Below are positions 4,378 to 63,064 of a stretch of 64,000 nt of DNA, piece by piece. The translations under genes and the position numbers were made by a program. Location: NCBI GenBank assembly GCA_902521315.1, contig CABYRH010000003.1, positions 1-64,000 on the forward strand, given 5' to 3'. The notes beneath the pieces are model-generated. The model made no database searches. It was not told the origin of the DNA and worked only from the letters and a program-made list of their open reading frames with translations. The stretch's first letter is position 1; every line of letters starts with the position of its first letter. This DNA is from an uncultured Alphaproteobacteria bacterium (GTDB lineage Bacteria > Pseudomonadota > Alphaproteobacteria > HIMB59 > GCA-002718135).

Positions 4378-4901
4378 ATATGAAGTTATTAATTGTAGAT
4401 GACGATTTGCCTTTTAGAGAGAGACTCACAAGATCTATGGAAAAAAAGGGTTTTGAAGTGGTTTCTTCTCCTGGATTCAGAGATTCTTTAGCTAAAGTTT
4501 CTGAAAATAATTTTGATTATGCTGTAGTTGATATGAGATTGGAAGATGGATCTGGTTTAGAATTAGTAAAGGAATTGCAGAAAATTAGTCCACAAACCAA
4601 ATCACTATTGTTAACGGGTTATGGAAATATCGCAACAGCCGTGGCTGCAATTAAGTCTGGTGCAATTGATTATCTTCCTAAACCTGCAGAAATAGATCAA
4701 ATTTACGATGCTCTTACTAATTCCAAAGAAGTTTTGCCACCACCCCCAGAAAACCCAATGACAGCTGATAGAATTAGATGGGAACATATTCAAAGAGTGT
4801 TTATACAGTGTAATAGAAATGTATCCGAGACAGCAAGAAGATTAAGAATGCATAGGCGTACATTACAAAGAATACTGAATAAACATGCACCACGAGAATA
4901 G
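4374..4901 (+). CDS. regA: Response regulator RegA/PrrA/ActR
   Basis: Partner of RegB: a receiver domain plus a short Fis-type helix-turn-helix that binds promoters of respiration, carbon and nitrogen genes in alphaproteobacteria. The receiver has the acidic pair DDD (9-11), phospho-acceptor Asp53 in VVDMRLEDGSG, and LPKP with the conserved lysine. After a proline run (EVLPPPPENP), also typical of RegA, comes the nearly invariant C-terminal DNA-binding helix pair NVSETARRLRMHRRTLQRIL. The 175-residue length is normal. Its 3' end overlaps the next gene by 17 bp in another frame. Confidence 0.95.
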   Translation: MNMKLLIVDDDLPFRERLTRSMEKKGFEVVSSPGFRDSLAKVSENNFDYAVVDMRLEDGSGLELVKELQKISPQTKSLLLTGYGNIATAVAAIKSGAIDYLPKPAEIDQIYDALTNSKEVLPPPPENPMTADRIRWEHIQRVFIQCNRNVSETARRLRMHRRTLQRILNKHAPRE

Positions 4902-5916
4902 TAAATCATTATCTATAGTTATACCTGTTTTTAACGAAATTAATTTTCTTTCAAGACTTTTTGAACAAATTAAAAAATACTTTAATGACAAATATATTGA
5001 AGTTATTTTTGTTGATGATGGATCAACTGATGGTTCTTCTAATTTACTTGAAGAATTAAAACTTAAAAATAATTATAATTTTTTATTTAAACTTATTAAA
5101 CTCGATACTAATTTTGGAAAAGGAAAAGCAATTCAAACAGGTATTAAAAATTCAAATGGTGAATATGTTTTACTTCAAGATGCAGATCTAGAATTAGATT
5201 GTAAAGATGCAAAAGAAATGTTTGACATGATATTGTCTAATGAAGATATAAAATGCATCTTTGGAAGCAGGTATCTATCAGGTAAATTAAAAAAAAATAA
5301 TTACTTTTTCAACAATCTTGTTGGAAAATTTAATTCTTTAATATTTAATTTGTTTTTTTCACAATCATTAAGTGACGTACATTGCGGTTTAAAAATTTTA
5401 CACAGAAGTGTTGTTAACAAAATTAATCTTAGTGTAAACGATTTTGGTATTGAAATTGATTTAGCATCACAAATAGTAAGAAATAATTTTTTTATCTATG
5501 AATTTGGTGTTTCATATTTTTTTAGATCTAAATCTCAAGGAAAAAAAATAACATGGATTGATGGTTTAAAATCTTTTTATTATCTTATTAAAGCGAGATT
5601 TCTAGATAACTCCACTTCTACAAACTTATCAATAATCTATTCTTCATTTTATATGGCATTTGTAGGATCACATTTTGGTATGGGATTGGGCAATACTTTA
5701 TTTATAATAATTTTCTTCATTTCAGGTCTAGTAATAGGAATTAATTTCAAAATTTTATCTTCTACCATAATATTTCTATCTATTTTTGTTGGATCTTTAT
5801 TTGGTCAAGGAAACGGGACTTCACTTTCTGTGTTTATTTTCTTCATATTAGGTTTATTTGTTGCAATTAAATCTAAAAATTATTTTATAAATTCTAATTT
5901 TAATAATTATTTTTAA
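4885..5916 (+). CDS. Family 2 glycosyltransferase with C-terminal membrane domain
   Basis: The N-terminal 240 residues are a DPM1/ArnC-like GT2 domain: SIVIPVFNE, VDDGSTDGS, FGKGKA and the metal-binding LQDADLELD. Such enzymes move a sugar from an NDP-sugar to polyprenyl phosphate on the cytoplasmic face. The C-terminus (about 250-330) is membrane-embedded and internally repeated: residues 262-289 and 304-331 share the pattern FGxGxG...FFIxGLxxxI with a 42-residue period. The start overlaps regA, and the end overlaps the convergent ligase gene by 17 bp. The sugar is unknown. Its place next to an O-antigen ligase-type protein suggests envelope glycan work. Confidence 0.85.
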   Translation: MHHENSKSLSIVIPVFNEINFLSRLFEQIKKYFNDKYIEVIFVDDGSTDGSSNLLEELKLKNNYNFLFKLIKLDTNFGKGKAIQTGIKNSNGEYVLLQDADLELDCKDAKEMFDMILSNEDIKCIFGSRYLSGKLKKNNYFFNNLVGKFNSLIFNLFFSQSLSDVHCGLKILHRSVVNKINLSVNDFGIEIDLASQIVRNNFFIYEFGVSYFFRSKSQGKKITWIDGLKSFYYLIKARFLDNSTSTNLSIIYSSFYMAFVGSHFGMGLGNTLFIIIFFISGLVIGINFKILSSTIIFLSIFVGSLFGQGNGTSLSVFIFFILGLFVAIKSKNYFINSNFNNYF

Positions 5917-7222
5917 ACTTACTTAGACATAAACATAATCCAATAACAAAAAATGTAGTTATTCCATACCAATTCTTGATTAGACTTCCAGTAGACATGA
6001 TTGGCCAAAACATAGTCAAAATAATAGCTATAGAAATAATTTTATATTTTTTATCACCAGTGTTTTTAAGTATAAATACAACTAAATAGTACAGATAAAG
6101 AATAAAAGAAATAAATACAATCATTCCTCCTTCAGCTAACCATTGAATATAAATATTATGCGGGTGTGATGCACAATTATAATGTACCATTAATTTTTTA
6201 TACAACTCATTAGAATTACACAAATATTTAAAATTATTTATTCCAATACCTGTAATTGGATTATCTAAAAACATTTTGTATGATAATTTGTAAATTTCAC
6301 CATATGCAGATGTACTAAAGTTTTTAATTATTTCATAAAAATTTGGTTGAATATTTATAATTTTTGAACATATTTTTTCTGTATCATTTTCACATTTATA
6401 AAATTTTTCTATTTTTTGACCTTGATGAAATTGGGTAGACTCAATTACATTAAAGTCATTATAAAATGGATGTAAATAAATAGCTAAAAAAATAAATATT
6501 GTACCAATTAAAATTGATAATGTAATAGATTTTCTAAATTCATCTAAAAATATAAATAAAAATATTAAGCTTAAAGAGAATGTTGCAAACGCCATTCTTT
6601 CACCAGATACATAACAAACTAAAATTATGAGAGACAGATAAAGTGATTGAATAATTATATTATCTTCTAATTTTTTTATAGATATAAGAAAGGCAAATCC
6701 AAATAAACCAAACTTTGATACATATGATCCTGGAATTAATTCATCTCCAAATGGACCAGTTAATCTTCCATACCAGTTTGATTTAAATCCTAACAAATCC
6801 TCCTTAAAACCATCCTTAGATGTATAATTAATGAATTGATACAGTGTATCTATGTTAACAAATAAAACAAAAACTAATATGAATAATAATAACTTCTCAA
6901 AAATTTTCTTATCTTTAAAAAATACAAGATAACAAAAAAATGGTATTAATAATAATCTAATAAAAATTAGAGAATCAAGGAAAGAATTAGTCTTATTATA
7001 TGAAAAGAAACTTATTAATATTAAAGTAAACCAAAATATAATTGAAACTCTAAATAAATTTAATTTTATAAAGTTTTCATATTCTTTTTGATAAATAATA
7101 TAAAATATTCCAAATAGTACACCTGATGTAATTACAATATCTGGTACAGCTGGACCAGTAATTAAAAATAAAGGGATCAGAAAGTAAAGGAAACCAAATA
7201 AATTTTTAGATTGTAGTATCAT
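5900..7222 (-). CDS. O-antigen ligase/polymerase family membrane protein (WaaL/Wzy-like)
   Basis: A 440-residue, highly hydrophobic protein with about ten to eleven predicted membrane segments and a large periplasmic loop late in the sequence. The Wzy_C-type signature is visible: GPFGDELIPGSYVSKFG, then GERMAFATFSLSL, then NPITGIGINNFKYLC, and the loop SHPHNIYIQWLAEGG. The HPHN histidine is typical of WaaL ligases, which join undecaprenyl-linked glycan to lipid A-core. It follows the ABC ATPase with a 17-bp overlap and converges on the GT2 gene. Ligase and polymerase cannot be separated from sequence alone. Confidence 0.85.
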   Translation of the reverse strand: MILQSKNLFGFLYFLIPLFLITGPAVPDIVITSGVLFGIFYIIYQKEYENFIKLNLFRVSIIFWFTLILISFFSYNKTNSFLDSLIFIRLLLIPFFCYLVFFKDKKIFEKLLLFILVFVLFVNIDTLYQFINYTSKDGFKEDLLGFKSNWYGRLTGPFGDELIPGSYVSKFGLFGFAFLISIKKLEDNIIIQSLYLSLIILVCYVSGERMAFATFSLSLIFLFIFLDEFRKSITLSILIGTIFIFLAIYLHPFYNDFNVIESTQFHQGQKIEKFYKCENDTEKICSKIINIQPNFYEIIKNFSTSAYGEIYKLSYKMFLDNPITGIGINNFKYLCNSNELYKKLMVHYNCASHPHNIYIQWLAEGGMIVFISFILYLYYLVVFILKNTGDKKYKIISIAIILTMFWPIMSTGSLIKNWYGITTFFVIGLCLCLSKFKNNY

Positions 7223-48797: not shown

Positions 48798-51188
48798 ATG
48801 AAATTTACACTAGACTGGCTAAAAGATCATTTAGATACTTCTGAAAATTTAAATACCATAACAGATACTTTAACCAATATTGGTTTAGAGATTGAAAGTG
48901 TAGAAGATAAATCAGAAATATTTAAGAATTTTACAGTAGCTAAAGTTTTAAAAGCAGAAAAACATCCAGATGCAGATAAGCTTAAAGTATGTCAGGTTGA
49001 AACAATAAATGGAAATTATCAAGTTGTGTGTGGTGCTCCAAATGCAAAAGAAGGCATGCTTGGAATTTTTGCGCCAGAAAATAGTTATATTCCTGGAACT
49101 GACTTACATTTAAAAAAAACTAAAATTAGAGGAGTTGAGTCTTGCGGAATGCTTGTCTCAGAAAGAGAGATGGGTATTTCTGATGAACATGATGGAATTA
49201 TTGAAGTAAAAGATAATTATAAAATTGGTGATTTATTTAGTAAAATTTTTGCAATAGATGAACCTATTATTGAAATTAATTTAACTCCAAATAGATCTGA
49301 CTGTTTATCGGTCAGAGGTATCGCAAGAGATTTAGCGGCAGCAGGAATTGGTAAATTAAAAGACATAAATTATAAAAAATCAAAAGAATCATTCAAAAGT
49401 CCAATTACGTGGAAAAAAGAATTTCAAAATAATAATCTATGTCCTGGAGTAGCAGGTCGATATTTTAAAAATGTCAAAAATGCAGAAAGCCCTAAATGGC
49501 TTCAAGATAGATTAACTGCAATCGGATTAAGGCCTATTTCAGCTCTTGTTGACATTACAAATTACATTACATTTGACTTGGGAAGACCGCTACATGTTTA
49601 TGATGCTGACAAAGTTTCAGGCAATTTAAAAATGCGACTAGCCAATAAAAATGAACAGTGTCTAGCACTAAATGAAGTTAATTATAAATGTGATAGTGAT
49701 ATGATTGTAATTTCTGATGATGAAAATAAACTTCATGGAATTGGCGGGGTCATGGGTGGCTTTGATAGTGGTTGTAGTATGGAAACCAAAAATGTTTTTC
49801 TAGAAGTTGCGTTATTTGATCCAGTTTCTGTCACTAAAACTGGAAGAAAACTTAATCTTCAAAGTGATGCACGTTACCGTTTTGAAAGAGGGATAGATAC
49901 TGACTCCATCTATTGGGGTGTAGATGCTGCAACTCAAATGATTTTAGAATTATGTGGTGGTGAAGTTAGTGAATTTGTCTCTTCAGAAATTAATATAGAA
50001 AAAAGTAAACCATTTATGTTTGATACAAATAAAGTGAAGACTTTCGGTGGAATAGAAATCAATAATGAGGAACAAGAAAAAATTTTAGTTTCACTTGGTT
50101 TTTCTGTTAATGAAAAAAAATCAAAATTTGAAATTCAAAGCCCTACTTTTAGACCAGATATTGTTGGTGAGGCAGATATAGTAGAGGAAATAATTAGAAT
50201 TTATGGTTATAATAAAATTCCTCTTAAAAAAGTAACTAATCAAGAAGAAAAAAAGCAGATTTTAAATACCAAAACAAAAACATTTTATAAAAGTAAAAAA
50301 ATTATGGCTCTGAATGGATATTCTGAAGTTGTAACTTGGTCGTTTATGGATGAAAATAATGCAAAAATTATATCAGATGAAATAATTAGTTTAAAAAATC
50401 CTATAAGTACCGATTTAAATACGATGAGACCATCTACGCTTCCAAATTTATTAGAAGCAATCAATCAAAATAAATCCAGAATGTATCTAAGAGCAAAAAT
50501 ATTTGAAGTAGGTCCAAATTTTTCTAAATCACTACCTGACCAACAAGAAAATGTTGCCACTGCTATAGCTTATGGCTCATCTGATGAACAAAATTGGTTA
50601 TCAAATAAAAAAAATATTGATGTCTTTAGTATAAAGGCTGATTTATTTGCTATTTTAGCTGATTTAAACGTACCTATAGATAATTTGATATATGAAAAAT
50701 TAGAAGGTAAAATTTATCATCCTGGCAAATCATCTTCTTTGAGGCTTGGGAAAAATAAAATAGCTAATTTTGGAGAACTACATCCAGTTCTATTAAAAAC
50801 AATGGATGTTAATTTGAAGGTATTTGGTTTTGAAATATATTTGGAGAATATTTCACAATTTCAAGAGAATAAATCTTTTTCAAAAGGAGGTTTTGCTAAT
50901 AATCCTTATCAAATGGTTGAAAGAGACTTTGCCTTTCTTTTCCCAAAAGAAGTAAGGGCTGGTGAGATAATTAAAAAAGTAAAAAAAATAGATAAAAATA
51001 TAATTCAAAACGTAACGATATTTGATGTTTATGAGGGTGATAAACTTCCAGAAAATAAAAAAAGTATTGCTTTTAGGGTTTTACTACAACCTCAGGATAA
51101 AACCTTCAACGATCAAGAAATTGAAGAATTATCTCAAAAAATAATTGAGGAAATATCTAAATCTTTTGATGCATCTATAAGAAAATAA
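48798..51188 (+). CDS. pheT: Phenylalanyl-tRNA synthetase beta subunit
   Basis: The 796-residue beta chain holding the editing site. In order: tRNA-binding EMAP-like domain (about 40-150, [24 protein letters not shown]), the B3/B4 editing domain ([25 protein letters not shown] in two parts), B5 ([24 protein letters not shown]), the catalytic-like core and the C-terminal FDX anticodon domain ([13 protein letters not shown]). It is a complete protein. The stop shares one base with the lepA start (TAATG). Confidence 0.97.
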
Positions 51189-52990
51189 TGACAGAACTTA
51201 GTTCTATTCGTAATTTCTCAATTGTTGCTCATATTGATCACGGAAAATCAACATTAGCCGATAGGCTTATACAGTTTTGTGGAGGTTTAACTGACAGGGA
51301 GATGAAAGAGCAGGTTTTAGATTCTATGGAATTAGAAAGAGAAAGAGGTATTACGATTAAAGCTCAAACAGTTAGACTTTCTTACAAATCAAATGATGGT
51401 ATGACCTACATACTTAATATTATTGACACTCCAGGGCATGTTGATTTCTCGTATGAGGTATCAAGATCTTTAGCAGCATGTGAGGGATCTTTATTAATAG
51501 TTGATTCTACACAGGGTGTTGAAGCTCAAACATTAGCTAATGCGTATCAGGCGATTAATAATGATCATGAAATTTTACCTGTTCTAAATAAAATTGACCT
51601 TCCTTCTTCTGAGCCAGATAAAATAAAATCACAAATTGAAGATGTGCTAGGAATTGAAACTGACAATGCTTCTCTTGTTTCAGCTAAAACAGGTGTTGGG
51701 ATAGAAGATTTATTAAATAAAATCATAACACTGCTCCCATCGCCATCAGGTGAAATAAGTAAAGAATTGAAATGTATGTTGGTTGATAGTTGGTATGACA
51801 GTTATCTTGGTGTTGTAGTTCTTGTAAGAGTTATAAATGGAGAACTAAAAAAAGGTCAAAAAATAAGATTTATGGCAACAGGCGCCACATATACAATTGA
51901 TAGAGTAGGTATATTTTCTCCTAAGGCCACTGAAGTTGATACACTTGGACCTGGTGAAATTGGCTTCATAAATTCTGGTATTAAAAGTGTTTCTGATTGT
52001 AAAGTTGGTGATACAATAACAGATGATAAGCTTCCAACCGAAGAAGTTCTCCCAGGTTTTAAACCATCCCAACCAGTAGTTTTTTGTGGAATGTTTCCTA
52101 TCGATTCTGATGACTATGAGCACATGCGAGATAGTATGTCAAAGTTAGCTTTAAATGATTCAAGTTTTTCTTATGAACCTGAAGTAAGTCCTGCTTTAGG
52201 TTATGGTTTTCGCTGCGGTTTTTTAGGTTTATTACATTTAGAAATTATTAGAGATCGGTTTGAAAGAGAATTTAATTTAGAACTCGTAACTACTGCACCA
52301 TCAGTTGTTTACAAAATATTAATGAAAGATGGATCAACTGTAAATCTACACAATCCTACCGATATGCCAGATCCAGTGAAAATAGAAAATATTTCAGAAC
52401 CTTGGATAAAGGCTACAATAATTGTACCTGAAGAATTTTTAGGATCAGTTCTAGAATTATGCACTTCTAAAAGGGGTATTCAACTAAATATGAGTTATGC
52501 AGGTAATAGACCTTTAGTAGAGTACAAACTTCCTTTGAATGAAGTCGTATTTGATTTTTATGATAGATTAAAATCAATTACTAAAGGTTATGCAAGTTTT
52601 GATTATGAAATTACAGGTTATGAAGTTAATAATTTAGTTAAAGTAGGTATACTTATAAATGGAGATCCAGTTGATGCACTATCTTTAATTGTTCACAAAG
52701 ATAGATCTGAACAAAGAGGTAGAGCATTGTGTGAGAGGTTAAAAGATTTAATACCTAGACAACAATTTAAGGTTGCAATTCAAGCAGCTATTGGTGGTAA
52801 AGTAATCGCACGAGAAACAGTAGCATCATTTAGAAAAGACGTAACACAAAAACTGTATGGTGGTGATGTAACTAGGAAGAATAAACTTCTGGATAAACAA
52901 AAAAAAGGTAAGAAAAGAATGAGACAATTTGGAAAAGTTGATATACCGCAAAATACTTTTCTAAACGCTTTAAAAATGAATGATAATTAA
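51188..52990 (+). CDS. lepA: Elongation factor 4 (LepA) GTPase
   Basis: A ribosome-associated GTPase of 600 residues related to EF-G. G1 is [14 protein letters not shown], switch II is [28 protein letters not shown] is G4 and SAKTG is G5. The LepA-specific C-terminal domain ends in [24 protein letters not shown]. It follows pheT directly and converges with the membrane-protein gene (4-bp overlap). Confidence 0.98.
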
Positions 52991-54489
52991 CTCTTATTCC
53001 TATTAATCAATTTACCATTGATTATTGGGGGCCATGTGTCATATCTCTTAAAATACCAATTATATTTTAAGATATTTTCTAAACAAAAGTATAATAGAAT
53101 TATTATAAGAATAAATCGTGAGTATTTTGAAATAGAGTCTTTAAATTCTATATAGATAAAAGTCCAGAAGGGTATTACTAAAAACGTAATCAATGATAAA
53201 TTATAAAAAAAACCAAACCTATAAGCGGGCGCTATCAGAAACCAAATACAATTAGAAATTAAAATTATAAACAACAATAAGAAATAACTTAATTTATTAT
53301 TAATTATACTACTAAAATTTAAATTATTTTTTTTAGATTTAATCAAAAAATATATAACAGGCAATAATATTAAAATTATAAATAAAAGGTAAGTCTCAAT
53401 AATTTTATTAAAATGATTATTAAACCAAGTTTGTATCCAGCTAAAATTTTCTACGCTGATACTTGTATTTATGTCTCCTTTTGCAAAAGATTCTATAAGG
53501 TAACTCTCTTTTACTGCTAAAGTATTATTTTTAAAACATGTAATTTCAATAGGCCATATTAAACATCCACTGATATTAATATTTTGAAAAAACCATATTA
53601 CAATTATTGTTAGAGGTATTAGTAATTTTAAAAAGTTTATTTTTGAAAACTTTAAATTTAAAAAAATTATTAAAAGATATAAAAAAATTAATGTGTTAGT
53701 GATTTTTAAAACAAAAGCTGTGCATGCAAGTATTAAAATTATAAACAATTCTTCATTAGTATAATTTTCCTTAACATCGAATGATTTATATAGTAAAAAA
53801 AAGAATATATATGACAATAGAATAAAACCTGGAACATCAGTTCCAAAATCTTTAAAATTATTTAAAACTCCTAATAAAAAAATTAATAAAAATAATGAAA
53901 ATATTCCAACATAAAAGTTTTTATTTTTTATAGATTTCTTAAATAATTTGTATGTATCATATACAGCTATAGAATAAAGAATAGAGCCAATAGTAAAATA
54001 TGTACTTGAGAAATAATCTACAATGAATATTGAATTTAAAAATAACCAAAAATTATTGTAACTTGTTCTTCGACCATGTTCTATTTCAAATAAATTTTCA
54101 GATTTGTAATTATTTATTATTTCTAAATGGTAACCAAAATCATCACTAACTCCTGAGAAAATACTAAAAATTGAGGAAAAAATTAAGATAAAAAATATAA
54201 GTTTAAGTTCATGAAATCTTAACAAATTACTTTTTGATAACAAAAAATATAATAATAAACCTATAATTATTACAGCAATACTAAGATTATTATTTATTGC
54301 GAAAAATAAATTAAGAAGTCCTAATATTATTCCAATAAAAAATAAACCTTTAATAAAAATTAAGTTTTTTAAATTAAGAAGATTATTATCAATTTTTAAT
54401 ACTCTATTTAATACATGCCCATATCCAACGACACTGATAAAGACTAATAGAGTATGAAAAGGATATATTAAATAATTTAGTGTATTCAC
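52987..54489 (-). CDS. Polytopic membrane protein of the polysaccharide island, possible GT-C-type transferase (copy 1)
   Basis: A 500-residue protein with about twelve hydrophobic segments and no family I can name firmly; it recalls the LIC_10190-type envelope proteins. Motifs: [10 protein letters not shown] (112-121) in a loop after about four segments, KDFGTDVP (213-220), and [13 protein letters not shown] (307-319) in an external-looking loop with cysteines 309 and 318. The 599-residue protein at 58522 shares all three with the same cysteine spacing. The acidic pair in a periplasmic loop resembles GT-C transferases that use lipid-linked sugars; that role is inference. It is the last gene of its cassette. 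Confidence 0.72.
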
Positions 54490-54502
54490 ATATTTTCTTT
54501 AT

Positions 54503-55402
54503 TTAGCATTTATTGAATTTATCTAAAATTCTAATAGTTTTGCATGAAATATCTAATAGCTCATTGGACAGAAAATAATCTGCTTTTCTAATGATATTTT
54601 CAAAATTATTTAATAATGATTCTAGCGGTGTTTGTAAATTTTTATGAACCAAAATATTATTTATATAAACTTCATGTTTTACAAAATCACAAATTAGAAA
54701 TTCTTTATTTGATAAAATTATTTTAAAAAATCTTTTTTTTGTGTGAAACAAATTTCCTGTTATTATTTTAACACTTATTAAATTATTTATTTTAAAGTTA
54801 AATCTTGATACTAATCCTTTTCCCGATATGCTTTTCTGTTTAATTTCTTTATATTTGAATTCAGAAATATGATCCTTTTTGAATAATTTGAATACTAATG
54901 AAAGAGAATGAAAACCCCAATCCCAAACTGGATTAATGTTTTTTCGAAATGGCCCTCTGCCACCCTCTATAATAATTATTTTCTTTATTTTATTGTGATT
55001 TTTTTTAATAAAATCATCAATTACATTGGCACACTCTGAAAAAATATTACTAAGATTTGGAATAGTTTGAATTTTGTGTTTTTTAATAATACTGGTCAAA
55101 TTTATTATACTTTTGTAACTATCTGTTATGGGTTTTTCTAAAATAACAGGTAAATTATGATAAATTAATAAGTTTATAACTTCAATATTTACTTTTGGTG
55201 AGGATGCAACATATAAACAATCAAGATTTTTTGAATTTATCATTTCTTCGACTTTTCTATAAATTTTTATAGAATCAGAAAATACTTTATTATCATTTCT
55301 ACATACCACATATTTTAATTCAAAATTTCTATTTTTATATATCTCATTAATGACAACATTAGACCATTTTCCACAACCAACTAAACCTAGCCTCAAAACC
55401 AT
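54503..55402 (-). CDS. Gfo/Idh/MocA-family sugar oxidoreductase
   Basis: A 299-residue NAD(P)-dependent oxidoreductase. The Rossmann motif is LGLVGCGKWSNVV at the N-terminus and the catalytic lysine lies in VILEKPITDS. The C-terminal sheet domain has NPVWDWGFHSLSLVFKLF, a WDWG.H pattern seen in sugar-nucleotide members of the family. It probably oxidises or reduces a keto-sugar for the surface glycan made by this cassette. It lies 3 bp after the SDR gene and 13 bp before the membrane-protein gene. Confidence 0.85.
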   Translation of the reverse strand: MVLRLGLVGCGKWSNVVINEIYKNRNFELKYVVCRNDNKVFSDSIKIYRKVEEMINSKNLDCLYVASSPKVNIEVINLLIYHNLPVILEKPITDSYKSIINLTSIIKKHKIQTIPNLSNIFSECANVIDDFIKKNHNKIKKIIIIEGGRGPFRKNINPVWDWGFHSLSLVFKLFKKDHISEFKYKEIKQKSISGKGLVSRFNFKINNLISVKIITGNLFHTKKRFFKIILSNKEFLICDFVKHEVYINNILVHKNLQTPLESLLNNFENIIRKADYFLSNELLDISCKTIRILDKFNKC

Positions 55403-55405
55403 AAA

Positions 55406-56437
55406 TTAAAATTTGTAATTTTTTGAAGCCCAAAATAAATAATTTTTAAGACCATTTTCCAATGAAATTTTTGGTTTGTAACTTAAATGTTTTTTTGCTT
55501 TGGAAATATCAGGACATCTTCGCAGAGGTTCGTCTTCAGGATAAGATTTTGGATAATTAATTTGCTTTGATTTTATTTTATTTATATGAATTTTTTCCAA
55601 AATTTTTATTACTTCTTTTACAGATATTTCTGGTCTTGTATTGCCAATGTTATATACTTCTCCTGATTTTCCAAAACACATAACTCTTAAAAAACCTTCA
55701 ATAGCATCTGTAATATAACAATAAGTTCTTGTTTGAGATCCAGAACCATAAATATTAAGTTCTTTATTTTTTAAGATATTACTTATGAAATTTGGAAAAA
55801 TTCTATAATCATTTTGTTTCATTCCCGGTCCATAAATATTAAAAGGTCTAATTATATTTGTATGAGTTTTAAAATATTTATTATGTATGTAGCAATAAGT
55901 TTCTCCTAATCTCTTACTTTCATCATAACAAGATCTTGGTCCTATAGAAGTTACGTTTCCGTTGTATGTTTCTTTTGTTGGAACATTTACTGCATCTGGA
56001 TTTCCATATATTTCACTAGTACTAAAATAAAATAGTTTAGATTTATTTTTTTTAGCTAAATTTAAACAATTTTTTATGCCTTCTATTGTAACGTCAATTG
56101 TTTCAAGGGGATATTTACGATAGTAAAACGGGCTTGCAATACCTGCGGCATGGATAATTAAATCAAATTTTTTATTTATAATGAATGGTTTAGAGAGATC
56201 TTTTTTAATTAATTCTATATTTTTATCAATTTTAAAATTACGTGTATTTTTATCAAATACTACTAATTTGATTGGTTTTTTTATTTGCATATTTAGCCTT
56301 TTAAAAACTTCTACAAAATATTTACCTATAAATCCATTACCTCCAGTTAATAATATACTTTTGTTTTCAAAATATTTTACTAATTCTTTTGTGTTTTTTA
56401 AAATTATTTCAATATCACTATCTAAGAAATCTTTCAT
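55406..56437 (-). CDS. NAD-dependent sugar epimerase/dehydratase (UDP-glucuronate decarboxylase-like SDR)
   Basis: An extended SDR of 343 residues. An N-terminal stretch of about 25 residues precedes LLTGGNGFIGKYF. The active-site set is STSEIYG, Tyr171 and Lys175 in SCYDESKRLGE, then RPFNIYGPGM and GSGSQTRTYCYITD. The GPRSCYDESKR segment is closest to UDP-xylose synthase (UXS), which oxidises C4 and decarboxylates UDP-GlcA; dTDP-glucose 4,6-dehydratase has a different SPYSASK context. It overlaps the methyltransferase by 4 bp. Exact substrate is uncertain. Confidence 0.82.
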   Translation of the reverse strand: MKDFLDSDIEIILKNTKELVKYFENKSILLTGGNGFIGKYFVEVFKRLNMQIKKPIKLVVFDKNTRNFKIDKNIELIKKDLSKPFIINKKFDLIIHAAGIASPFYYRKYPLETIDVTIEGIKNCLNLAKKNKSKLFYFSTSEIYGNPDAVNVPTKETYNGNVTSIGPRSCYDESKRLGETYCYIHNKYFKTHTNIIRPFNIYGPGMKQNDYRIFPNFISNILKNKELNIYGSGSQTRTYCYITDAIEGFLRVMCFGKSGEVYNIGNTRPEISVKEVIKILEKIHINKIKSKQINYPKSYPEDEPLRRCPDISKAKKHLSYKPKISLENGLKNYLFWASKNYKF

Positions 56438-57618
56438 AATAATACTTTAAATGGTATGGGTTTATAAAATTTAACTTTAATTTTTTTAAAATTTTTTCTA
56501 ATATCCTCTAAATATTCATAAGCAAATACGATTACAATGTTTATATTTTTATTTAAATTTTTCTCTTTACTAACAATTTTTATATGACTTCCAGGAGTAA
56601 ACTTATTTTGTTTTATCGGACTATCATCAATAATATATTTAATTAATTTACTATTAATATTTGAGAAATTTGTAATAGTAGAAACTCTTGCTGGAGCACC
56701 ATAACCTATTATAGTATTTCCTTCTTGGTTTAACTTAATTAATCTATCTCTAAATTTTTTAGATTCATTAATAATTTTTTTATTAATTTTTATTAATGAA
56801 TTAACATTAAAATAAATTTTTTCTTTTAATAAAATGTCTTTACATCTTTTTGTTTTTTTAACAAATTCAGAATTTTTTATATACAATCTTAACGAACTTC
56901 CATGAATGTTAACTATTTCAATATCGAATAAACTCATACCTATTGATTTAAAAATATAATCTATTGAATTAGCTGAGTAATAAAATGGTCTATCAAAATA
57001 AAAACGTTCATATTCTAAATTTTTTATAAATTTATATAAATATTCTATTTCAATTATTAAAATACCATTTTTCACAAGAAAATATTTAGTATTTTTAGCA
57101 AACTTAATTGGATTTTCTAAATGTGTAACAATACTTGAAGCAACCAATACATCTGGCTTTTTATGTTCTTGTATTATTTTATTGATTACTTTTTTCTCAA
57201 AAAAATCAATATATGTTTTTAGCCCTTTATCGTTAGCAATTTTTCCAACATTTATAGAAGGATCAATTCCAACACATTTAATTTTGTTTTTTCTCAGAGG
57301 CTCTAGAAATATTCCATCATTTGAACCAATATCAACAACAAATTTTGATTTTTTAAGTTTTCTAGCTAATTTTGAAAAATGAATTTTTAATCCTTTATTA
57401 ATTGATGATAAGTAAAAATACTCCTCAAACATTAATTTTCGACTAACAATATTTTTAATCTGAGCAGTTTGGCATTTTGCACAAAAAAAAATTGATAAGC
57501 CAAATTTTTTTTCTTTCTTAATTTCATTTTTATTTTTTGGATATTTATTAGCCAATGGCTGCTTACCAAGATTTAAAATTTCTTTTGTTCTATCTGATTT
57601 ACAAATTCTACATTTCAT
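56434..57618 (-). CDS. Sugar C-methyltransferase (TylCIII/NovU-like, zinc-binding N-terminus)
   Basis: A 394-residue SAM-dependent methyltransferase. Zinc ligands are Cys3, Cys6, Cys46 and Cys49 in the N-terminal domain. The SAM loop is VVDIGSNDGIFLEPL. The C-terminal domain has IIGYGAPARVSTITNF and YIIDDSPIKQNKFTPGSHI, characteristic of the C-methyltransferases that add a branch methyl at C3 of NDP-4-keto sugars. So the cassette may build a branched-chain deoxysugar. It is preceded by a GT2 one base upstream and overlaps the SDR gene downstream. Confidence 0.85.
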   Translation of the reverse strand: MKCRICKSDRTKEILNLGKQPLANKYPKNKNEIKKEKKFGLSIFFCAKCQTAQIKNIVSRKLMFEEYFYLSSINKGLKIHFSKLARKLKKSKFVVDIGSNDGIFLEPLRKNKIKCVGIDPSINVGKIANDKGLKTYIDFFEKKVINKIIQEHKKPDVLVASSIVTHLENPIKFAKNTKYFLVKNGILIIEIEYLYKFIKNLEYERFYFDRPFYYSANSIDYIFKSIGMSLFDIEIVNIHGSSLRLYIKNSEFVKKTKRCKDILLKEKIYFNVNSLIKINKKIINESKKFRDRLIKLNQEGNTIIGYGAPARVSTITNFSNINSKLIKYIIDDSPIKQNKFTPGSHIKIVSKEKNLNKNINIVIVFAYEYLEDIRKNFKKIKVKFYKPIPFKVLL

Positions 57619-57619
57619 A

Positions 57620-58318
57620 TCAAAAAAATATTTTTATTCTTGTAATTATTATCCAATAAATTACTGAAAATACGTCAAAATAACGAATTTTTTTACCCTC
57701 GTCATATTTTCTAGCATTATAATTAATTCCAATTTCATATATTTTTTTTGATCTACTAACAACATAAGTTAAGATTTCAGCATGCTGACCCCATCTGTAA
57801 GATTTTAATTTTTTAATATCTAAGTTTTCTTTTTTAAAAAGCATATAACAACAATAAATATCGGAAAAAGTTGTATTATTTATTAAATTAAATAAAGCAC
57901 TAATAAATTTATTACCTAACATATGCCAAAAATGTAAAACACTTCTTTCATTCCCAATAAATCTACTGCCAAGTATTAAGTCTGCCTGAAAGTTTTTAAT
58001 TTTATCTATGAATAAAACCAAATCATTTGGGTCATATTCCAAATCTGCATCTTGTATTACAATATATTCTGAACTTACTATTTTTAATCCTTCAATAACA
58101 GCCTTACCCTTTCCTAAATTTTTGTCTAAATTAATTAATTTATTATATAATTTTTCACCTTCAATTAATTTGTTTAAAGTTCCATCGGTTGACCCATCAT
58201 TTACAACTATTATTTCTAAATTAGTATTTTTTTTAAGTTCACTAACTCTATCTAAAATTTTTGTAATTGTTTTTTCTTCATTATATACTGGAATAATTAT
58301 TGAAAGTGATATTTTCAT
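57620..58318 (-). CDS. DPM1-like family 2 glycosyltransferase (first gene of cassette 1)
   Basis: A 232-residue single-domain GT2: LSIIIPVYNEEKTI, VVNDGSTDGT, NLGKGKAVIEGL, VIQDADLEYDP and LGSRF. This is the pattern of dolichyl/polyprenyl-phosphate sugar transferases. No C-terminal membrane domain is present beyond a hydrophobic stretch at the very end (VIYWIIITRI). It would load the sugar made by the following genes onto polyprenyl phosphate; the sugar is unknown. It heads the run GT2-methyltransferase-SDR-Gfo-membrane protein. Confidence 0.85.
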   Translation of the reverse strand: MKISLSIIIPVYNEEKTITKILDRVSELKKNTNLEIIVVNDGSTDGTLNKLIEGEKLYNKLINLDKNLGKGKAVIEGLKIVSSEYIVIQDADLEYDPNDLVLFIDKIKNFQADLILGSRFIGNERSVLHFWHMLGNKFISALFNLINNTTFSDIYCCYMLFKKENLDIKKLKSYRWGQHAEILTYVVSRSKKIYEIGINYNARKYDEGKKIRYFDVFSVIYWIIITRIKIFF

Positions 58319-58405
58319 CTTTTTATATTTTCATTTACAATATAAGAAATGTTTACAATATATATTAATAAACCAAATAAGCTCTAAGTATTATTAAATT
58401 AAACC

Positions 58406-58411
58406 TATAAT
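58406..58411 (+). promoter_or_regulatory. Candidate -10 box of tRNA-Ser
   Basis: A perfect TATAAT ends 14 bp upstream of the mature tRNA 5' end. No good -35 element is seen. Confidence 0.4.
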
Positions 58412-58425
58412 TAATTTATATTTAA

Positions 58426-58515
58426 GGAGAGATGTGAGAGTGGTTTAATCAGCACGCTTGGAAAGCGTGTGTAGTAGCAATACTACCGAGGGTTCGAATC
58501 CCTCTCTCTCCGCCA
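58426..58515 (+). tRNA. tRNA-Ser(GGA)
   Basis: A 90-base class II tRNA with the long variable arm of serine tRNAs. The acceptor stem GGAGAGA pairs with TCTCTCC (58505-58511). The anticodon stem CACGC/GCGTG encloses loop TTGGAAA with anticodon GGA at 58460-58462. The variable arm is GTAGTA-GCAA-TACTAC and the T-arm is GAGGG-TTCGAAT-CCCTC. The terminal CCA is encoded (58513-58515). It reads UCC and UCU. It sits between two sugar cassettes on the opposite strand. Confidence 0.97.
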
Positions 58516-58521
58516 TGCATA

Positions 58522-60321
58522 CTAATATAAAATATTTTTGTTCATAAAATTATAACAAGAATCATTGTAATTACGGCTATAAATCATGTATCCATATACC
58601 TTTGTCTGTTTTCCTAAACAAACTTCTTTCCCATCAGGAATACAGGGAAATTTGACATTACCACACATTAAAATAAAATCACTATTATTATCAAATAATA
58701 GTTTCTTAGAATAAATTCTCTTATAAAAATTTAAATTGTTTTTTTTATCATTAATATAATCTTCATTAATATTTAGCTGATGTAAGTTTGGCCATGGATA
58801 ATCACTAATTAATTCATTATTTAAATCATTTAAAATTCTATTTATATTTTTATATTCTAAGTAAAAAAGGGCTATTGACGCTAATATAACCATATTTGTG
58901 GTCTTAATATGTCTTTTAACAATACTATTAAAATATTTAAACAAAAGTGAAAAAGTAAAAACAAAACAAAAAGCACCTCCATATCTAATTTGAGGTGATA
59001 AATAGAACCATAATGCACAAGAAAGAAATGAAGATAAAATTAATAAATAATATTTTGAATTATTATGAACTAATATTGATTCTCTATTTTTTTTTGAATT
59101 TATTATTAATAACAAATAAATAATTGACGTTAATGCAAGTAAATTTATAATTTTTTTATAATTAGAATCTTTAATCCAATATTTCAGCCAAAAAAAAGGA
59201 GTAGTATTAGCATACTCACTGTATGTAAAAAAATTTTCACTTTTCAGATTTTTCCAAACAAATTTATCTTTAATATTGAAATGATCTTTAGCATAAAAAG
59301 GCCAACCTTTTGAATCAGCTTGAAGTTTTTTATTTTTTTGAATTACAATTTTTTGATCAATACCCCAAGTTAATTTTGTAAAACATGTATTGTGTATTGG
59401 ATAAACTATACATCCTGATTGAATAATATTTTTGACTATAAAAAAAGAAATAATTATAGATAAACAAACAACCAATAAATAATTTTCTTTTATATATTTA
59501 GGAATTCTGAAATAATAAAAAAAAATTAATAATAAGAATATTGGTAATATTATAACACTATTTACTCTTAAAATAATTGCCAAGGTTAGAAGGCACAGTA
59601 AAAAAGAAATTTTTCTATTACTATACCCTAATATTATACATTCATAAATTAATACACCGCACATTATTAAAATCAATTGTGGTGGTATACTTGTGCCAAA
59701 ATCTCTTAAACTTGAAAATACTATTATAGATAATATTAATATCAAATAATAAAACACATCCTTTGTTTTTATTACTTTATTAAAAATAAAAATTAGAAAG
59801 AATATATAAAAATATAAAATTGTAATTGAGTAAGAATTTTTAAATAAGAAAGGATGTTTAAATAAAACCAAAATATCATACAGGCTATTTGATGAATAGG
59901 CTAAAGTATCATTAATATTTACCAACCCAAAAATTATTTTCGAAGCTTCTAAGTATTTCATATATGGTAAATAATAGTGATAAAAATCTTCATTAGACTC
60001 AGCAATAATTCCTAATGGCAATAAAATAACACTCAAAATTATCAACTTAGTAATCTCTAATTTTTTTAATTGATTAGTAATAAAAGCATAAAAAAAAAGT
60101 ATTATGCCAATTATTTGAATACTTAAAATATTGAAGTCTAAAAATGTAAAAAAAAAATGAAATAAATTTGAAATAAAATAAAGAGTTAAAAAACCCATTA
60201 AACCTAAAAAACCTAAATCATTAGATTTATTAGTATTAGTTAAAATTAATTTACAAAATATAAATCCATATCCAATAATAATTAATGGTACAGAAAAATA
60301 GAAAAATAAAAAAAAAGTCAT
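58522..60321 (-). CDS. Polytopic membrane protein of the polysaccharide island, possible GT-C-type transferase (copy 2)
   Basis: A 599-residue protein with about twelve hydrophobic segments and a C-terminal soluble part of roughly 90 residues rich in cysteines. Motifs: ESNEDFYHYYLPY (108-120), RDFGTSIP (206-213), and SGCIVYPIHNTCF (302-314) with Cys304 and Cys313. All three align with the 500-residue protein at 52987, including the nine-residue cysteine spacing, so the two are distant paralogues. The function is unknown; a lipid-linked-sugar transferase is my inference from the acidic loop and the cassette position. It ends just 7 bp from the tRNA gene. Confidence 0.72.
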   Translation of the reverse strand: MTFFLFFYFSVPLIIIGYGFIFCKLILTNTNKSNDLGFLGLMGFLTLYFISNLFHFFFTFLDFNILSIQIIGIILFFYAFITNQLKKLEITKLIILSVILLPLGIIAESNEDFYHYYLPYMKYLEASKIIFGLVNINDTLAYSSNSLYDILVLFKHPFLFKNSYSITILYFYIFFLIFIFNKVIKTKDVFYYLILILSIIVFSSLRDFGTSIPPQLILIMCGVLIYECIILGYSNRKISFLLCLLTLAIILRVNSVIILPIFLLLIFFYYFRIPKYIKENYLLVVCLSIIISFFIVKNIIQSGCIVYPIHNTCFTKLTWGIDQKIVIQKNKKLQADSKGWPFYAKDHFNIKDKFVWKNLKSENFFTYSEYANTTPFFWLKYWIKDSNYKKIINLLALTSIIYLLLIINSKKNRESILVHNNSKYYLLILSSFLSCALWFYLSPQIRYGGAFCFVFTFSLLFKYFNSIVKRHIKTTNMVILASIALFYLEYKNINRILNDLNNELISDYPWPNLHQLNINEDYINDKKNNLNFYKRIYSKKLLFDNNSDFILMCGNVKFPCIPDGKEVCLGKQTKVYGYMIYSRNYNDSCYNFMNKNILY

Positions 60322-60342
60322 GATATATTAAAATTTCAAAAT

Positions 60343-61539
60343 CTAATCTACTTCTTTAATAACCTTTCTAATATCATTTGCTAATCTAATGATTACTCTT
60401 AAATCTATTTTTTTTGAAGAAATTCCCAACATAAAACCAGATGTATGTATTTTATCAGCATTGTGAAATTGATGTCTTGCAAAACTTTTAAATTTTTCTT
60501 TAATTATTTTTTGTTTTACAAAATTGCCACTTATTATAGGTCTTGTTTCAATACCTAGCTTATAAAGTTTTTCACAAATAATATCTCTTTTTTTATTTTT
60601 TATTTTTTTTAAAATTATTGGAAAGTTAAACCAACTGATTTCTGATTTGCTATAATTTGTAACAAAATTTATATTATCATTGAGGAATTTGTCCTTTCTA
60701 AATACATCATTTATAAGATTATAATTATGTAGTCTATTGTTTCTGTACTTATCTATTTTTTTTACTTGATTAAATAGAAGTGCAGCTTGTATATCTGTTA
60801 ATCTTAAATTATATCCAAGATTTATAAAATTAAATAATTTATTAAAACTTTTAGATTTATTTTTTTCTAAGTGATCTATTTCTCTAGACCAACCATGTGA
60901 TCTTAAAGATAACAAAATTTTATAATCTCTATAATTTTTACACAAAACTAAGCCTCCTTCACCCGAGGTAATATGGTGAGAAAAATAAAAAGAAAATGAG
61001 GATATTGCTCCATAACTGCCAAGATATTTATTATTAAACTTACTTCCTAGTGCTTCACAAGTATCCTCAATCAATACCAAATTATATTTTTTTACAATTT
61101 TCATTAAAAGAGCCATGTTTGTGCAATTACCAAGTGCATGTACAAGCATGATAGCTTTAGTTTTTTTTGTAATTTTTTTTTGAATTTTTTCTAAGTCAAT
61201 ATTTAAATTGTTAATATCTACATCAACAAAAACAGGTTTTAAGCCTGTTTGAATAATTGGATATAAAGATGTAGACCAGCAAAGAGTCGGTATAATAACT
61301 TCATCATTTTTATTTAAATTATATCTACTCTTATTATTTGTGAGTAATGATAAAGCAAGTAAATTTGCTGAAGATCCAGAATTCACTAACAAAGCGTATC
61401 TATTGAATTTTTTTGAAAAATATTTTTCAACTATTTTATTAAAGTATCCCCTTGTTATGTTACCACTTTTAATAACTTCAATAGCAAGTTTCTTATCTTC
61501 ATTATTTATTGTATTGGTTGTTAACGGATAATAAATCAT
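60343..61539 (-). CDS. colD: ColD-type PLP-dependent GDP-4-keto-6-deoxymannose 3-dehydratase
   Basis: A 398-residue DegT/DnrJ-fold protein. The usual Schiff-base lysine is replaced by histidine in SFYFSHHITSGEGG (His188/His189), the hallmark of the 3-dehydratases ColD and RfbH/E1 rather than aminotransferases. The context NSGSSANLLALSLL, CWSTSLYPIIQTGL, VDVDINNLNID, LEDTCEALGSKFNNK and GIETRPIISGNFVK closely follows E. coli ColD. I see no RfbH-type iron-sulfur cysteine cluster. ColD removes the C3 hydroxyl on the way to GDP-colitose; its substrate is the product of Gmd, encoded at the right edge. It overlaps the GT2 gene by 4 bp. Confidence 0.88.
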   Translation of the reverse strand: MIYYPLTTNTINNEDKKLAIEVIKSGNITRGYFNKIVEKYFSKKFNRYALLVNSGSSANLLALSLLTNNKSRYNLNKNDEVIIPTLCWSTSLYPIIQTGLKPVFVDVDINNLNIDLEKIQKKITKKTKAIMLVHALGNCTNMALLMKIVKKYNLVLIEDTCEALGSKFNNKYLGSYGAISSFSFYFSHHITSGEGGLVLCKNYRDYKILLSLRSHGWSREIDHLEKNKSKSFNKLFNFINLGYNLRLTDIQAALLFNQVKKIDKYRNNRLHNYNLINDVFRKDKFLNDNINFVTNYSKSEISWFNFPIILKKIKNKKRDIICEKLYKLGIETRPIISGNFVKQKIIKEKFKSFARHQFHNADKIHTSGFMLGISSKKIDLRVIIRLANDIRKVIKEVD

Positions 61540-62237
61540 ATTTTTCTAAATTTTATTTTAAAAATTCCTAATAAAGAATTAACTATATCTTTTAATCTTA
61601 CTGAACTACTCCCAAATTTTCTATTAATAAAAATAGTTGGATATTCATCAATGAGAAATTTTTTCTTTTTTAATATTATTAAAGTTTCAGTCAAATATAT
61701 AAAACCATTGTTTTTTATCTCATATTTTAAGAGTTCAGTAATTGATCTACGACTATATATTCTAAATCCATTAGTATAATCACTTATATCAAAACCAAAC
61801 AAAAATTGTGCTAAAAGATTTGCAAGTTTAGAGAATATTTTTCTTTTAATGGGCCATCCAACAATTTTGCTTTTTTTTAAATATCTGCTTCCAATTATTA
61901 AGTCATAATTTTTATTTGTGATCTTTTCTAAAAGAAACTTTATTTCATTTGGGTCATGAGAACAGTCACTATCCATTTCAATGATATAATCAAAGAAATG
62001 TTGATTTGCATACTCAAAACCAAATCTAATAGCACTTCCTCTACCCATTTTTACGTCTCTTTTTACATATTTCAAGTTTGAAAATTTATAATGTTCAATG
62101 TTTTGCTTAGTTAAAAAGTTGTTAGAGTCATCAATTAAAATGATATTTACATTTGTATATTCATTTTGAATAATTTTAATTAATTTAATAATATTTTCAT
62201 CTTCATTATAAGCAGGAATTATTATAAGTACTTTCAT
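61536..62237 (-). CDS. DPM1-like family 2 glycosyltransferase (first gene of cassette 2)
   Basis: A 233-residue single-domain GT2 with LIIIPAYNEDENI, LIDDSNN (DxSxx in place of DDGSxDG), MGRGSAIRFGFEYA, EMDSDCSHDPNEI and IGSRY, plus the DPM1-like SDYTNGFRIYSR. This is the dolichyl-phosphate mannosyltransferase type, which loads lipid phosphate from GDP-sugars; that suits GDP-linked sugars made by Gmd and ColD. It heads GT2-colD-membrane protein. Its start lies only 8 bp from the divergent SDR gene. Confidence 0.87.
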   Translation of the reverse strand: MKVLIIIPAYNEDENIIKLIKIIQNEYTNVNIILIDDSNNFLTKQNIEHYKFSNLKYVKRDVKMGRGSAIRFGFEYANQHFFDYIIEMDSDCSHDPNEIKFLLEKITNKNYDLIIGSRYLKKSKIVGWPIKRKIFSKLANLLAQFLFGFDISDYTNGFRIYSRRSITELLKYEIKNNGFIYLTETLIILKKKKFLIDEYPTIFINRKFGSSSVRLKDIVNSLLGIFKIKFRKI

Positions 62238-62245
62238 ATTATAAG

Positions 62246-63064
62246 ATGATTTTAGGTATAACTGGTCATAAAGGAATTTTAGGAAAATCTATCATAAATT
62301 ATATAAAAAAATATGAAAAAAGTAATTATAAGATATCTTTATATAAAAATAATGTTCTTGATTTTGAAAAATTAGGAAAATGGATCGATAAAATAGATAT
62401 CATCCTTCATCTTGCCGCAGTTACATCAATTTATGAAGTGAATAAAAATAAAAAATATGCTGAAAAAGTTAATTATCTATCTGTTAAATTTATAGCTCGA
62501 AAAATTAAGCAAATAAATTCAAATAAAAAATTAATATTTATTTCTTCTTCTCATGTTTATTCAAGTTCAAATAAAAAAATTAGTGAAAACTCATTAATTA
62601 ATCCTTCAACTTATTATGGTAAGCTTAAATATAGATCTGAAAAAGAAATACAGAGAAATTTATCTAATTTCTTAATAATTAGATTATTTAGTTACTATTC
62701 TCCAAAACAATCAAAGCAATTTTTAATACCAGCTTTAATCAATAAAATAAAAACTATAAAAGGAAAAAAGATTAAACTTAAAAATTATAATAATATAAGA
62801 GATATATCTACCATAGGTTACGTTACAAAACAAATATCTAGTCTAATTTTTATAAAATTTAATGGTATTGTTAATTGTGGATCAGGGTGTGGTATATCTC
62901 TTGAAAGCCTTGCAAAAAAAATTGCTCATGATAAATTTAAAAAAAATATTGAATTTGATAGAAGATTTAAACTAAAGAAACCAAGTAAAATCATATGCAA
63001 TAATGATAAATTATTAAAAATTACTGGTATTAAAAAAATGGATAATTTATTTAAGATACTATGA
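62246..63064 (+). CDS. NAD(P)-dependent sugar epimerase/reductase (RmlD/Rmd-like SDR)
   Basis: A 272-residue extended SDR. The dinucleotide motif is GITGHKGILG (4-13), followed by ILHLAAVTSIYEVNKN, SSSHVYS and the catalytic pair Tyr124/Lys128 (YGKLK). Its size and HLAA motif resemble RmlD/Rmd reductases that reduce the 4-keto group of NDP-6-deoxysugars. Overlap with gmd (4 bp) suggests it acts on the GDP-4-keto-6-deoxymannose that Gmd makes, or on the ColD product (a ColC-like step). The exact product is undetermined. Confidence 0.78.
   Translation: MILGITGHKGILGKSIINYIKKYEKSNYKISLYKNNVLDFEKLGKWIDKIDIILHLAAVTSIYEVNKNKKYAEKVNYLSVKFIARKIKQINSNKKLIFISSSHVYSSSNKKISENSLINPSTYYGKLKYRSEKEIQRNLSNFLIIRLFSYYSPKQSKQFLIPALINKIKTIKGKKIKLKNYNNIRDISTIGYVTKQISSLIFIKFNGIVNCGSGCGISLESLAKKIAHDKFKKNIEFDRRFKLKKPSKIICNNDKLLKITGIKKMDNLFKIL

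Follow-up and report, generated by a model that had tools for sequence, protein, structure and literature searches.

Gene content of the lepA/tRNA-Ser locus

Contig CABYRH010000003.1 of an uncultured alphaproteobacterium of the order HIMB59 carries, next to lepA, two gene cassettes for sugar enzymes, glycosyltransferases and large membrane proteins, one on either side of a tRNA-Ser gene. We analyzed the first 64,000 nucleotides of this contig, referred to below as the window. A first-pass annotation made from the sequence alone had described the cassettes as parallel, each running on the minus strand from a family 2 glycosyltransferase (GT2) gene to a membrane protein gene. All eight open reading frames (ORFs) and the tRNA-Ser(GGA) gene were found at the positions and on the strands it had assigned, confirming its observation of gene order and motifs. 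Its product labels (two GT2s, a C-methyltransferase, an epimerase-type short-chain dehydrogenase/reductase or SDR, GFO_IDH_MocA, and DegT) agreed with Pfam and NCBIfam. The second cassette, however, runs past position 62237, and a reductase and Gmd had been overlooked.

The conserved left boundary of slot 1 is lepA (51188 to 52990, plus strand), whose 3' end shares 4 bp with the gene for the membrane protein MP1. The tRNA-Ser(GGA) gene (58426 to 58515, plus strand, detected by ARAGORN) is the anchor, with slot 1 on its 5' side and slot 2 on its 3' side. Slot 1 holds cassette 1 (52987 to 58318), a tight minus-strand operon with 107 bp between its first gene and the tRNA. It comprises the genes for the GT2 protein GT2a (57620 to 58318; 232 amino acids [aa]), a sugar C-methyltransferase (56434 to 57618; 394 aa), an SDR similar to UXS (55406 to 56437; 343 aa), a Gfo/Idh/MocA oxidoreductase (54503 to 55402; 299 aa) and MP1 (52987 to 54489; 500 aa).

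Cassette 2 starts 6 bp past the tRNA with the minus-strand genes for the membrane protein MP2 (58522 to 60321; 599 aa), the DegT protein (60343 to 61539; 398 aa) and the GT2 protein GT2b (61536 to 62237; 233 aa). They are followed on the plus strand by an SDR of 272 aa (62246 to 63064) and Gmd (63061 to 64104, the window ending at 64000; 347 aa). Since the set Gmd-SDR-GT2b-DegT-MP2 was found again in two relatives (G079 and G068), the 272-aa SDR and Gmd belong to cassette 2. The SDR is equally placed at the loci L089, L090 and L120, and in genome G102, MP2 and a partial DegT gene were 97% identical to the window before the contig ended. The divergent start codons of GT2b and the SDR (62237 to 62246) are only 8 bp apart, likewise in L089 and L090, so that promoters would have to sit in coding sequence. 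The G+C content of the cassettes was 21.7% and 22.5%, compared to 30.9% for pheT-lepA.

For cassette 1, we predict a C-methylated pentose as the product. The UXS-like SDR, a putative UDP-glucuronate decarboxylase yielding a 4-keto-pentose, had human UXS1 as its best solved relative (E 2.5e-54). The motifs S(T/S)SE, YDESK (YxxxK) and QTR, whose residues presumably have their UXS roles, were present in 16 of 16 cassettes. The C-methyltransferase (PF08421, PF13489, and PF08484) was similar to TcaB9 (E 6e-49). The Gfo/Idh/MocA protein (PF01408, E 2.6e-11), a putative ketoreductase for the last step, is divergent, with a single distant solved relative (3c1a, E 1e-6).

The colitose route runs through Gmd, ColD and ColC, and cassette 2 is predicted to supply three steps of such a GDP-3,6-dideoxyhexose (colitose-type) pathway. 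Gmd, the GDP-mannose 4,6-dehydratase, was assigned securely (TIGR01472, 501.6 bits versus a cut-off of 415; GMD structures, E 2e-122). The DegT protein resembles the 3-dehydratase ColD, its best solved relative (E 4e-75). In line with this, a His replaces the pyridoxal phosphate-binding Lys (SFYFSHHITSGEGG), and SFYFSHHITSGEGG was present in all four complete copies of this DegT type. As in the GDP-L-colitose pathway, Gmd scored over its cut-off and the ColD-like enzyme has the His substitution. The third enzyme differs, being a short RmlD-like SDR (PF04321; closest solved relatives RmlD-type) that we consider a putative 4-ketoreductase, and a lipid loader and a GT-C protein are linked to the genes. 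The product may be a 3,6-dideoxyhexose other than colitose.

Predicted GT-C proteins and their GT2 partners

In agreement with the first-pass annotation, MP1 and MP2 turned out to be distant paralogs (27% identity over approximately 324 residues; E 3e-10), and both motifs it had pointed out, DFGT..P and SGC-x7-TCF, occur in both proteins. MP2 passed the NCBIfam model NF047510 (LIC_10190) with 110.3 bits (curated cut-off, 100), while MP1 missed it with 96.6 bits and counts only as a relative of the LIC_10190 family. Both proteins were modeled confidently with a GT-C fold. When the two predicted models were compared to known structures using VIA-align, matches 1 to 39 of one comparison and 1 to 38 of the other were all GT-C or GT-C-like. 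The nearest folds to both were ALG12 and ArnT, and the similarity extended to Pmt4, STT3 and PglB. The ArnT-like fold spans 321 to 366 residues, the best ArnT alignment beginning after approximately 85 N-terminal residues; MP2 additionally has a C-terminal soluble part. Based on these models, we predict that MP1 and MP2 are GT-C glycosyltransferases, which would use a polyprenyl-phosphate sugar.

Asp117 of MP1 (DDFxYH) and Asp112 of MP2 were invariant in alignments of 64 and 59 rows. Judging from range offsets, they may correspond to ArnT D55, the acidic residue that GT-C enzymes conserve in their first extracytoplasmic loop. The second Cys of SGC-x7-TCF was invariant across the 59-row alignment A1. 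The two cysteines of this motif (C309 and C318 of MP1, 53536 to 53565; C304 and C313 of MP2, 59383 to 59412) are nearly invariant and could form an extracytoplasmic disulfide. Homologs of the membrane proteins carry the precomputed Pfam accession PF26626.1, and our literature search found no paper naming the LIC_10190 family.

GT2a and GT2b were closest to lipid-phosphate synthases and are putative polyprenyl-phosphate sugar synthases. The solved relatives of GT2a were dolichyl-phosphate mannose synthase (DPMS), ArnC and GtrB; those of GT2b were the Pyrococcus furiosus DPMS (E 1e-23), followed by ArnC and GtrB. Moreover, the phage family phrog_841 (GtrB-like, O-antigen conversion) matched both proteins, and the GT2a motifs DAD and GSRF were kept in 16 of 16 cassettes. 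A simple hydropathy count revealed no transmembrane (TM) segments in either protein. Since the donor of DPM1 is GDP-mannose, a GDP-sugar formed through Gmd would be the expected donor of the DPM1-type GT2b.

Since this genome has five PF00535 genes, it is unlikely that two of them adjoin two GT-C genes by chance. Between 2 and 8 GT2 genes per genome were counted in 15 genomes of the lineage. A third GT2 of the window (343 aa) adjoins a Wzy_C/O-antigen-ligase-type protein (4885 to 7222), a possible link to an acceptor glycan.

Searching the order HIMB59 (162 genomes) with profile A1 at E≤1e-5 yielded homologs of the membrane proteins in 37. With the NF047510 model, 15 of the 61 close relatives gave a match at E≤0.001; at E≤1e-10, it matched 6 of 386 genomes sampled across the class and 6 of 397 sampled across the phylum, the own genome being included in each. 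Matches of this model below its cut-off also turned up in 2 of 14 controls at E≤0.001, but in none at 1e-10. Proximity to a GT2 gene was checked with full-length homologs (fragments of ≤450 aa were left out here and in the tree described below). Indeed, 37 of the 43 homologs in the order had a GT2 gene within 3.6 kb, as did 22 of 28 if the 15 cassette 1 copies were removed.

Two probable exchange slots in related genomes

A lepA match was found in 79 genomes of the same family, and 62 of them, in which lepA and tRNA-Ser lie on one stretch, were informative. The others comprise G036 and G117, whose stretches lack the lepA side, and genomes in which the stretch ends early or shows no tRNA-Ser; eight genomes of a second family were excluded from the slot 1 count. 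Slot 1 was empty in 21 of the 62 genomes, with 5 to 15 bp between lepA and tRNA-Ser. Thirteen genomes had the full cassette 1 there and one a cassette 1 lacking the MP1 ORF; four had an Alg9-like GT22 (a GT-C protein) with a GT2, and the remaining 23 had other genes or none. Among these 23 were pairs of a UbiA-type protein and a large membrane protein. UbiA was confirmed by Pfam in G088 and G096, and a third pair, in G015, was assigned from membrane-protein similarity and by eye.

In these pairs (L124, 8627 to 11457; L140, 6122 to 8953; L142, 7221 to 10031; in G088, G096 and G015, respectively), the membrane proteins are 650 to 663 aa long and 43 to 49% alike. The pairs resemble polyprenyl-phosphoribose plus GT-C systems. 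We considered assigning the 650- to 663-aa proteins to GT-C but did not do so, as they gave no match to our membrane-protein model, and no Pfam match in the two that were scanned (L124 and L140).

Six arrangements were found in slot 2: MP2-DegT-GT2b with Gmd (type 1); a membrane protein with a GT2, a 303- to 314-aa protein and an SDR (type 2); a membrane protein opposite a GT2-GtrA fusion (type 3; PF04138 with 43 to 45 bits in 4 of 4 scanned); a membrane protein, an SDR and a FAD enzyme without a GT2 (type 4); a membrane protein alone (type 5); and a GT2 with a GT22 (type 6). In a 43-row tree of the membrane proteins, slot 2 types 1 to 4 (4 rows each) each formed one fully supported group and the cassette 1 rows required two changes; the types were labeled by hand from neighboring genes, and near-copies favor such clustering. 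Thus, as the first-pass annotation had suggested should be checked, differing sugar genes, GT2s or GT-Cs occupy the same two slots in relatives. We take lepA-tRNA-Ser to be a two-slot exchange site with the tRNA as the anchor between the slots.

Other slot genes recognized by Pfam were an AT3-SGNH acyltransferase (L131, 10026 to 11969), a carbamoyltransferase (L140, 4084 to 5943) and a glutaminase-ankyrin protein (L089, 8290 to 10326). At L095 (659 to 6314, in G101), a slot 2-type membrane protein gene is followed 6 bp on by GT2a, as if the cassettes were fused, and ARAGORN found no tRNA on this contig. In L028 (1641 to 8034) and L030 (1754 to 8146), a tRNA-Met pair approximately 6.2 kb apart encloses a GT2, an SDR, a membrane protein homolog and a further membrane protein of 656 or 662 aa (46% alike), which looks like a cassette splitting a tRNA pair.

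Cassette 1 varied as a block. At 16 cassette 1 loci, the median identity was 64.9% for GT2a, 67.7% for the C-methyltransferase, 66.9% for the SDR, 46.6% for the Gfo protein and 46.2% for MP1 (one of the 16 MP1 rows being a 210-aa fragment), while the median pairwise amino acid identity of lepA at 13 cassette-bearing loci was 97.5%. Judged by sequence, the transferase is therefore variable (46% versus 97.5%). Distances between the genes within cassette 1 were correlated in the 13 full loci (r 0.85 to 0.95; for every pair, 0 of 499 permutations gave a value as high). Those between cassette 1 and lepA were hardly so (r 0.02 to 0.17; 34 to 190 of 499 as high). Eight dereplicated loci gave r 0.61 to 0.89 within cassette 1 (0 to 8 of 999 as high) and r 0.09 to 0.22 against lepA (49 to 235 of 999). 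Cassette 1, which this test covers, thus varies as a block independently of the lepA gene that it overlaps. The insertion point is the 4 to 15 bp separating lepA from the tRNA, and inspection of the slot 1 junctions by eye revealed no target duplication.

Two genomes have lost parts of a cassette. In G102, approximately 1.3 kb are gone inside MP1, of which only the two ends are left, while the four remaining ORFs of cassette 1 match those of the window in length. In cassette 2 of G113, approximately 0.6 kb are gone inside GT2b and approximately 1.7 kb inside MP2, while DegT, the SDR and Gmd are still open (90 to 98% identity). Joint loss of loader and transferase with retention of the sugar enzymes is what the coupling proposed below predicts, although these are two genomes only.

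Proposed glycosylation modules and rival explanations

We think it probable that each cassette is a largely self-contained, chromosomal module for extracytoplasmic glycosylation that works like Gtr serotype conversion. In cassette 2, Gmd would convert GDP-mannose to GDP-4-keto-6-deoxymannose, the ColD-like enzyme would catalyze the 3-dehydration, and the 272-aa SDR would then perform the 4-reduction to a GDP-3,6-dideoxyhexose. GT2b would load the dideoxyhexose onto polyprenyl phosphate at the inner membrane face, some flippase would turn the sugar-lipid over, and the GT-C protein would move the sugar to a periplasmic acceptor, most likely lipopolysaccharide (LPS) or O-polysaccharide. In cassette 1, the UXS-like SDR would convert UDP-glucuronate to a UDP-4-keto-pentose, the C-methyltransferase would put a methyl branch next to the keto group, and the Gfo protein would reduce the product. 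GT2a would then load the methyl-branched sugar and MP1 would transfer it. Slots 1 and 2 would be swapped between cells as blocks, presumably by homologous recombination, giving combinatorial surface variation with a possible role against phages. The load-on-lipid, transfer-outside logic had already been suggested in the first-pass annotation. It is supported by the GT-C models, by the DPM1/ArnC/GtrB-like GT2s with their phrog_841 match, and by the variable genes in the same slots; a link to phages found no support. Neither outcome named in that annotation as refuting the idea occurred, since the models show a GT-C fold and 37 of 43 full-length homologs in the order lie near a GT2.

Several results weigh against this reading. 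Six of the 43 full-length homologs had no GT2 on the stretch examined: four of one type (95 to 97% alike), a solitary one by the tRNA and another close to the end of its contig. The five of their genomes that were tested all hold GT2s elsewhere, according to the PF00535 count. Outside the order, a GT2 was found within 3.6 kb at only 2 of 9 family sites (control stretches, 0 of 8) and at 8.6 kb at a third; four of the nine were not recognized by the membrane-protein model and two were far below the family cut-off. These figures led us to reject the idea that LIC_10190 proteins in general are paired with a GT2. The scores of GT2a with the AglJ model (105 bits) and of GT2b with the PpgS model (79 bits) were under the cut-offs of 325 and 370, and the UXS-like SDR, the Gfo protein and the 272-aa SDR were under their equivalog cut-offs. 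The Glu-His pair of TcaB9 is catalytic, and in the C-methyltransferase Asp-Arg takes its place in 16 of 16 cassettes (YFDRP versus YDEHF), making its methyl position and substrate uncertain. Foldseek by itself found nothing in the PDB at E≤0.001 for the membrane-protein models and is too weak alone, so that the fold assignment was decided by VIA-align.

No flippase was identified, either. The first-pass annotation had stated that the window lacks GtrA, and indeed none was over the cut-off in the whole 87%-complete genome; the best GtrA match had 14.9 bits, was on another contig and was below the threshold, at a level where controls match, too. The slot 2 GT2s of four relatives, however, carry a fused GtrA domain. 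Furthermore, at the sensitivity used, MP1 and MP2 had no relative in viral contigs or phage records. Ten cassette proteins compared to phage families gave metabolic matches only (GtrB-like for both GT2s) and no structural or integration family. Carriage on a phage, by which phage serotype conversion is defined, was thus not found here.

The same results bear on the explanation that the cassettes are remnants of phages or integrative elements integrated at a tRNA gene, like the Salmonella gtr operons, which adjoin tRNA genes at phage-derived sites (PMC3688519). The position by the tRNA, the low G+C content (22% versus 31% in pheT-lepA), the match of both GT2s to a phage-carried GtrB-like family, and the occurrence of homologs near tRNA-Met, -Val and -Arg in the order would fit such an origin. 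We nevertheless regard it as quite unlikely, given the lack of viral relatives of MP1 and MP2 at the sensitivity used and of phage structural or integration families among the ten cassette proteins (a scan that leaves out most unlabeled genes in the slots of relatives), the lack of target duplication by eye, and the finding that one tRNA 3'-end pattern, which would mark an attachment site, has no second copy within the window. Moreover, slot 1 sits 5' of the tRNA, opposite to the side usually used for attachment at tRNA genes.

Other explanations concern the acceptor and the order of events. As the fold likewise resembles Pmt4, STT3 and PglB and the sequence does not reveal the acceptor, the modules could glycosylate periplasmic or outer membrane proteins instead of LPS; we consider this unlikely. 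Alternatively, the membrane proteins could play a Wzy/WaaL role, polymerizing or ligating a short surface polymer, with the GT2s as ordinary cytoplasmic transferases that add the cassette sugar to an undecaprenyl-PP oligosaccharide. The genome does encode two Wzy_C proteins and LpxC, and the window GT2s lack TM segments, as do many cytoplasmic GT2s. Still, this appears very unlikely to us.

The proposed modules differ from each known system with which we compared them. ArnC-ArnT shares the GT2 loader, a GT-C protein of ArnT-like fold, and an operon that also encodes a UXS/ArnA-like SDR along with further sugar enzymes; here, the sugars are others, no ArnE/F-type protein was among the ten scanned, and the GT2s, unlike ArnC, are without TM segments. 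In Salmonella and Shigella, Gtr systems are horizontally acquired beside tRNA genes with a varying transferase (PMC3688519). With GtrA-GtrB-GtrC, the locus thus shares a lipid-phosphate sugar synthase, a variable membrane transferase and the position next to a tRNA. It differs in that no GtrA was over the cut-off, no phage was found, the transferases are LIC_10190-related, each cassette has its own nucleotide-sugar enzymes, and two slots flank one tRNA. Because no GtrA was found, the locus falls outside the definition of a Gtr system. A version with a UbiA-family synthase, a MATE flippase and a GT-C is known from three-component pentofuranose systems with GT136 (PMC11127046). These share a lipid-phosphate synthase and a GT-C with our locus, and the UbiA/large-membrane-protein pairs with slot 1 of relatives, whereas the loaders in the window are GT2s. 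Finally, LIC_10190 proteins are often paired with a GT2 in this order but seldom at the sites sampled outside it. LPS islands of the order were described in PMC10734472, where 'lepa' occurs 0 times, and judged from search listings, we recognized no description of this locus in the literature.

In summary, it is distinctive that sugar pathways travel in the cassettes, that a single tRNA is flanked by two slots, and that one site accommodates different classes of loader and of GT-C. More tentatively, and with some doubt, we suggest that the locus could be a two-slot, phage-free glycotype switch in a clade abundant in the ocean. The slots would independently take up complete modules, each with a nucleotide-sugar pathway, a loader that could be a GT2, a GT2-GtrA fusion or a UbiA protein, and a GT-C of any family, so that slot 1 types combine with slot 2 types. 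The LIC_10190 proteins would then represent a new family of GT-C enzymes, and the donor made by cassette 1 would be a pentose with a C-methyl branch, carried on polyprenyl phosphate.

Our results suggest that serotype-conversion logic is encoded chromosomally in a marine lineage with streamlined genomes and few GT2 genes. Since near-identical flanks enclose very different cassettes, natural pairs representing gain, loss and swap exist. With these pairs, including G102 (transferase deleted) and G113 (loader and transferase deleted), the role of surface variation in ocean bacteria is directly testable. Moreover, the LIC_10190 membrane proteins, an uncharacterized family, gain a testable function.

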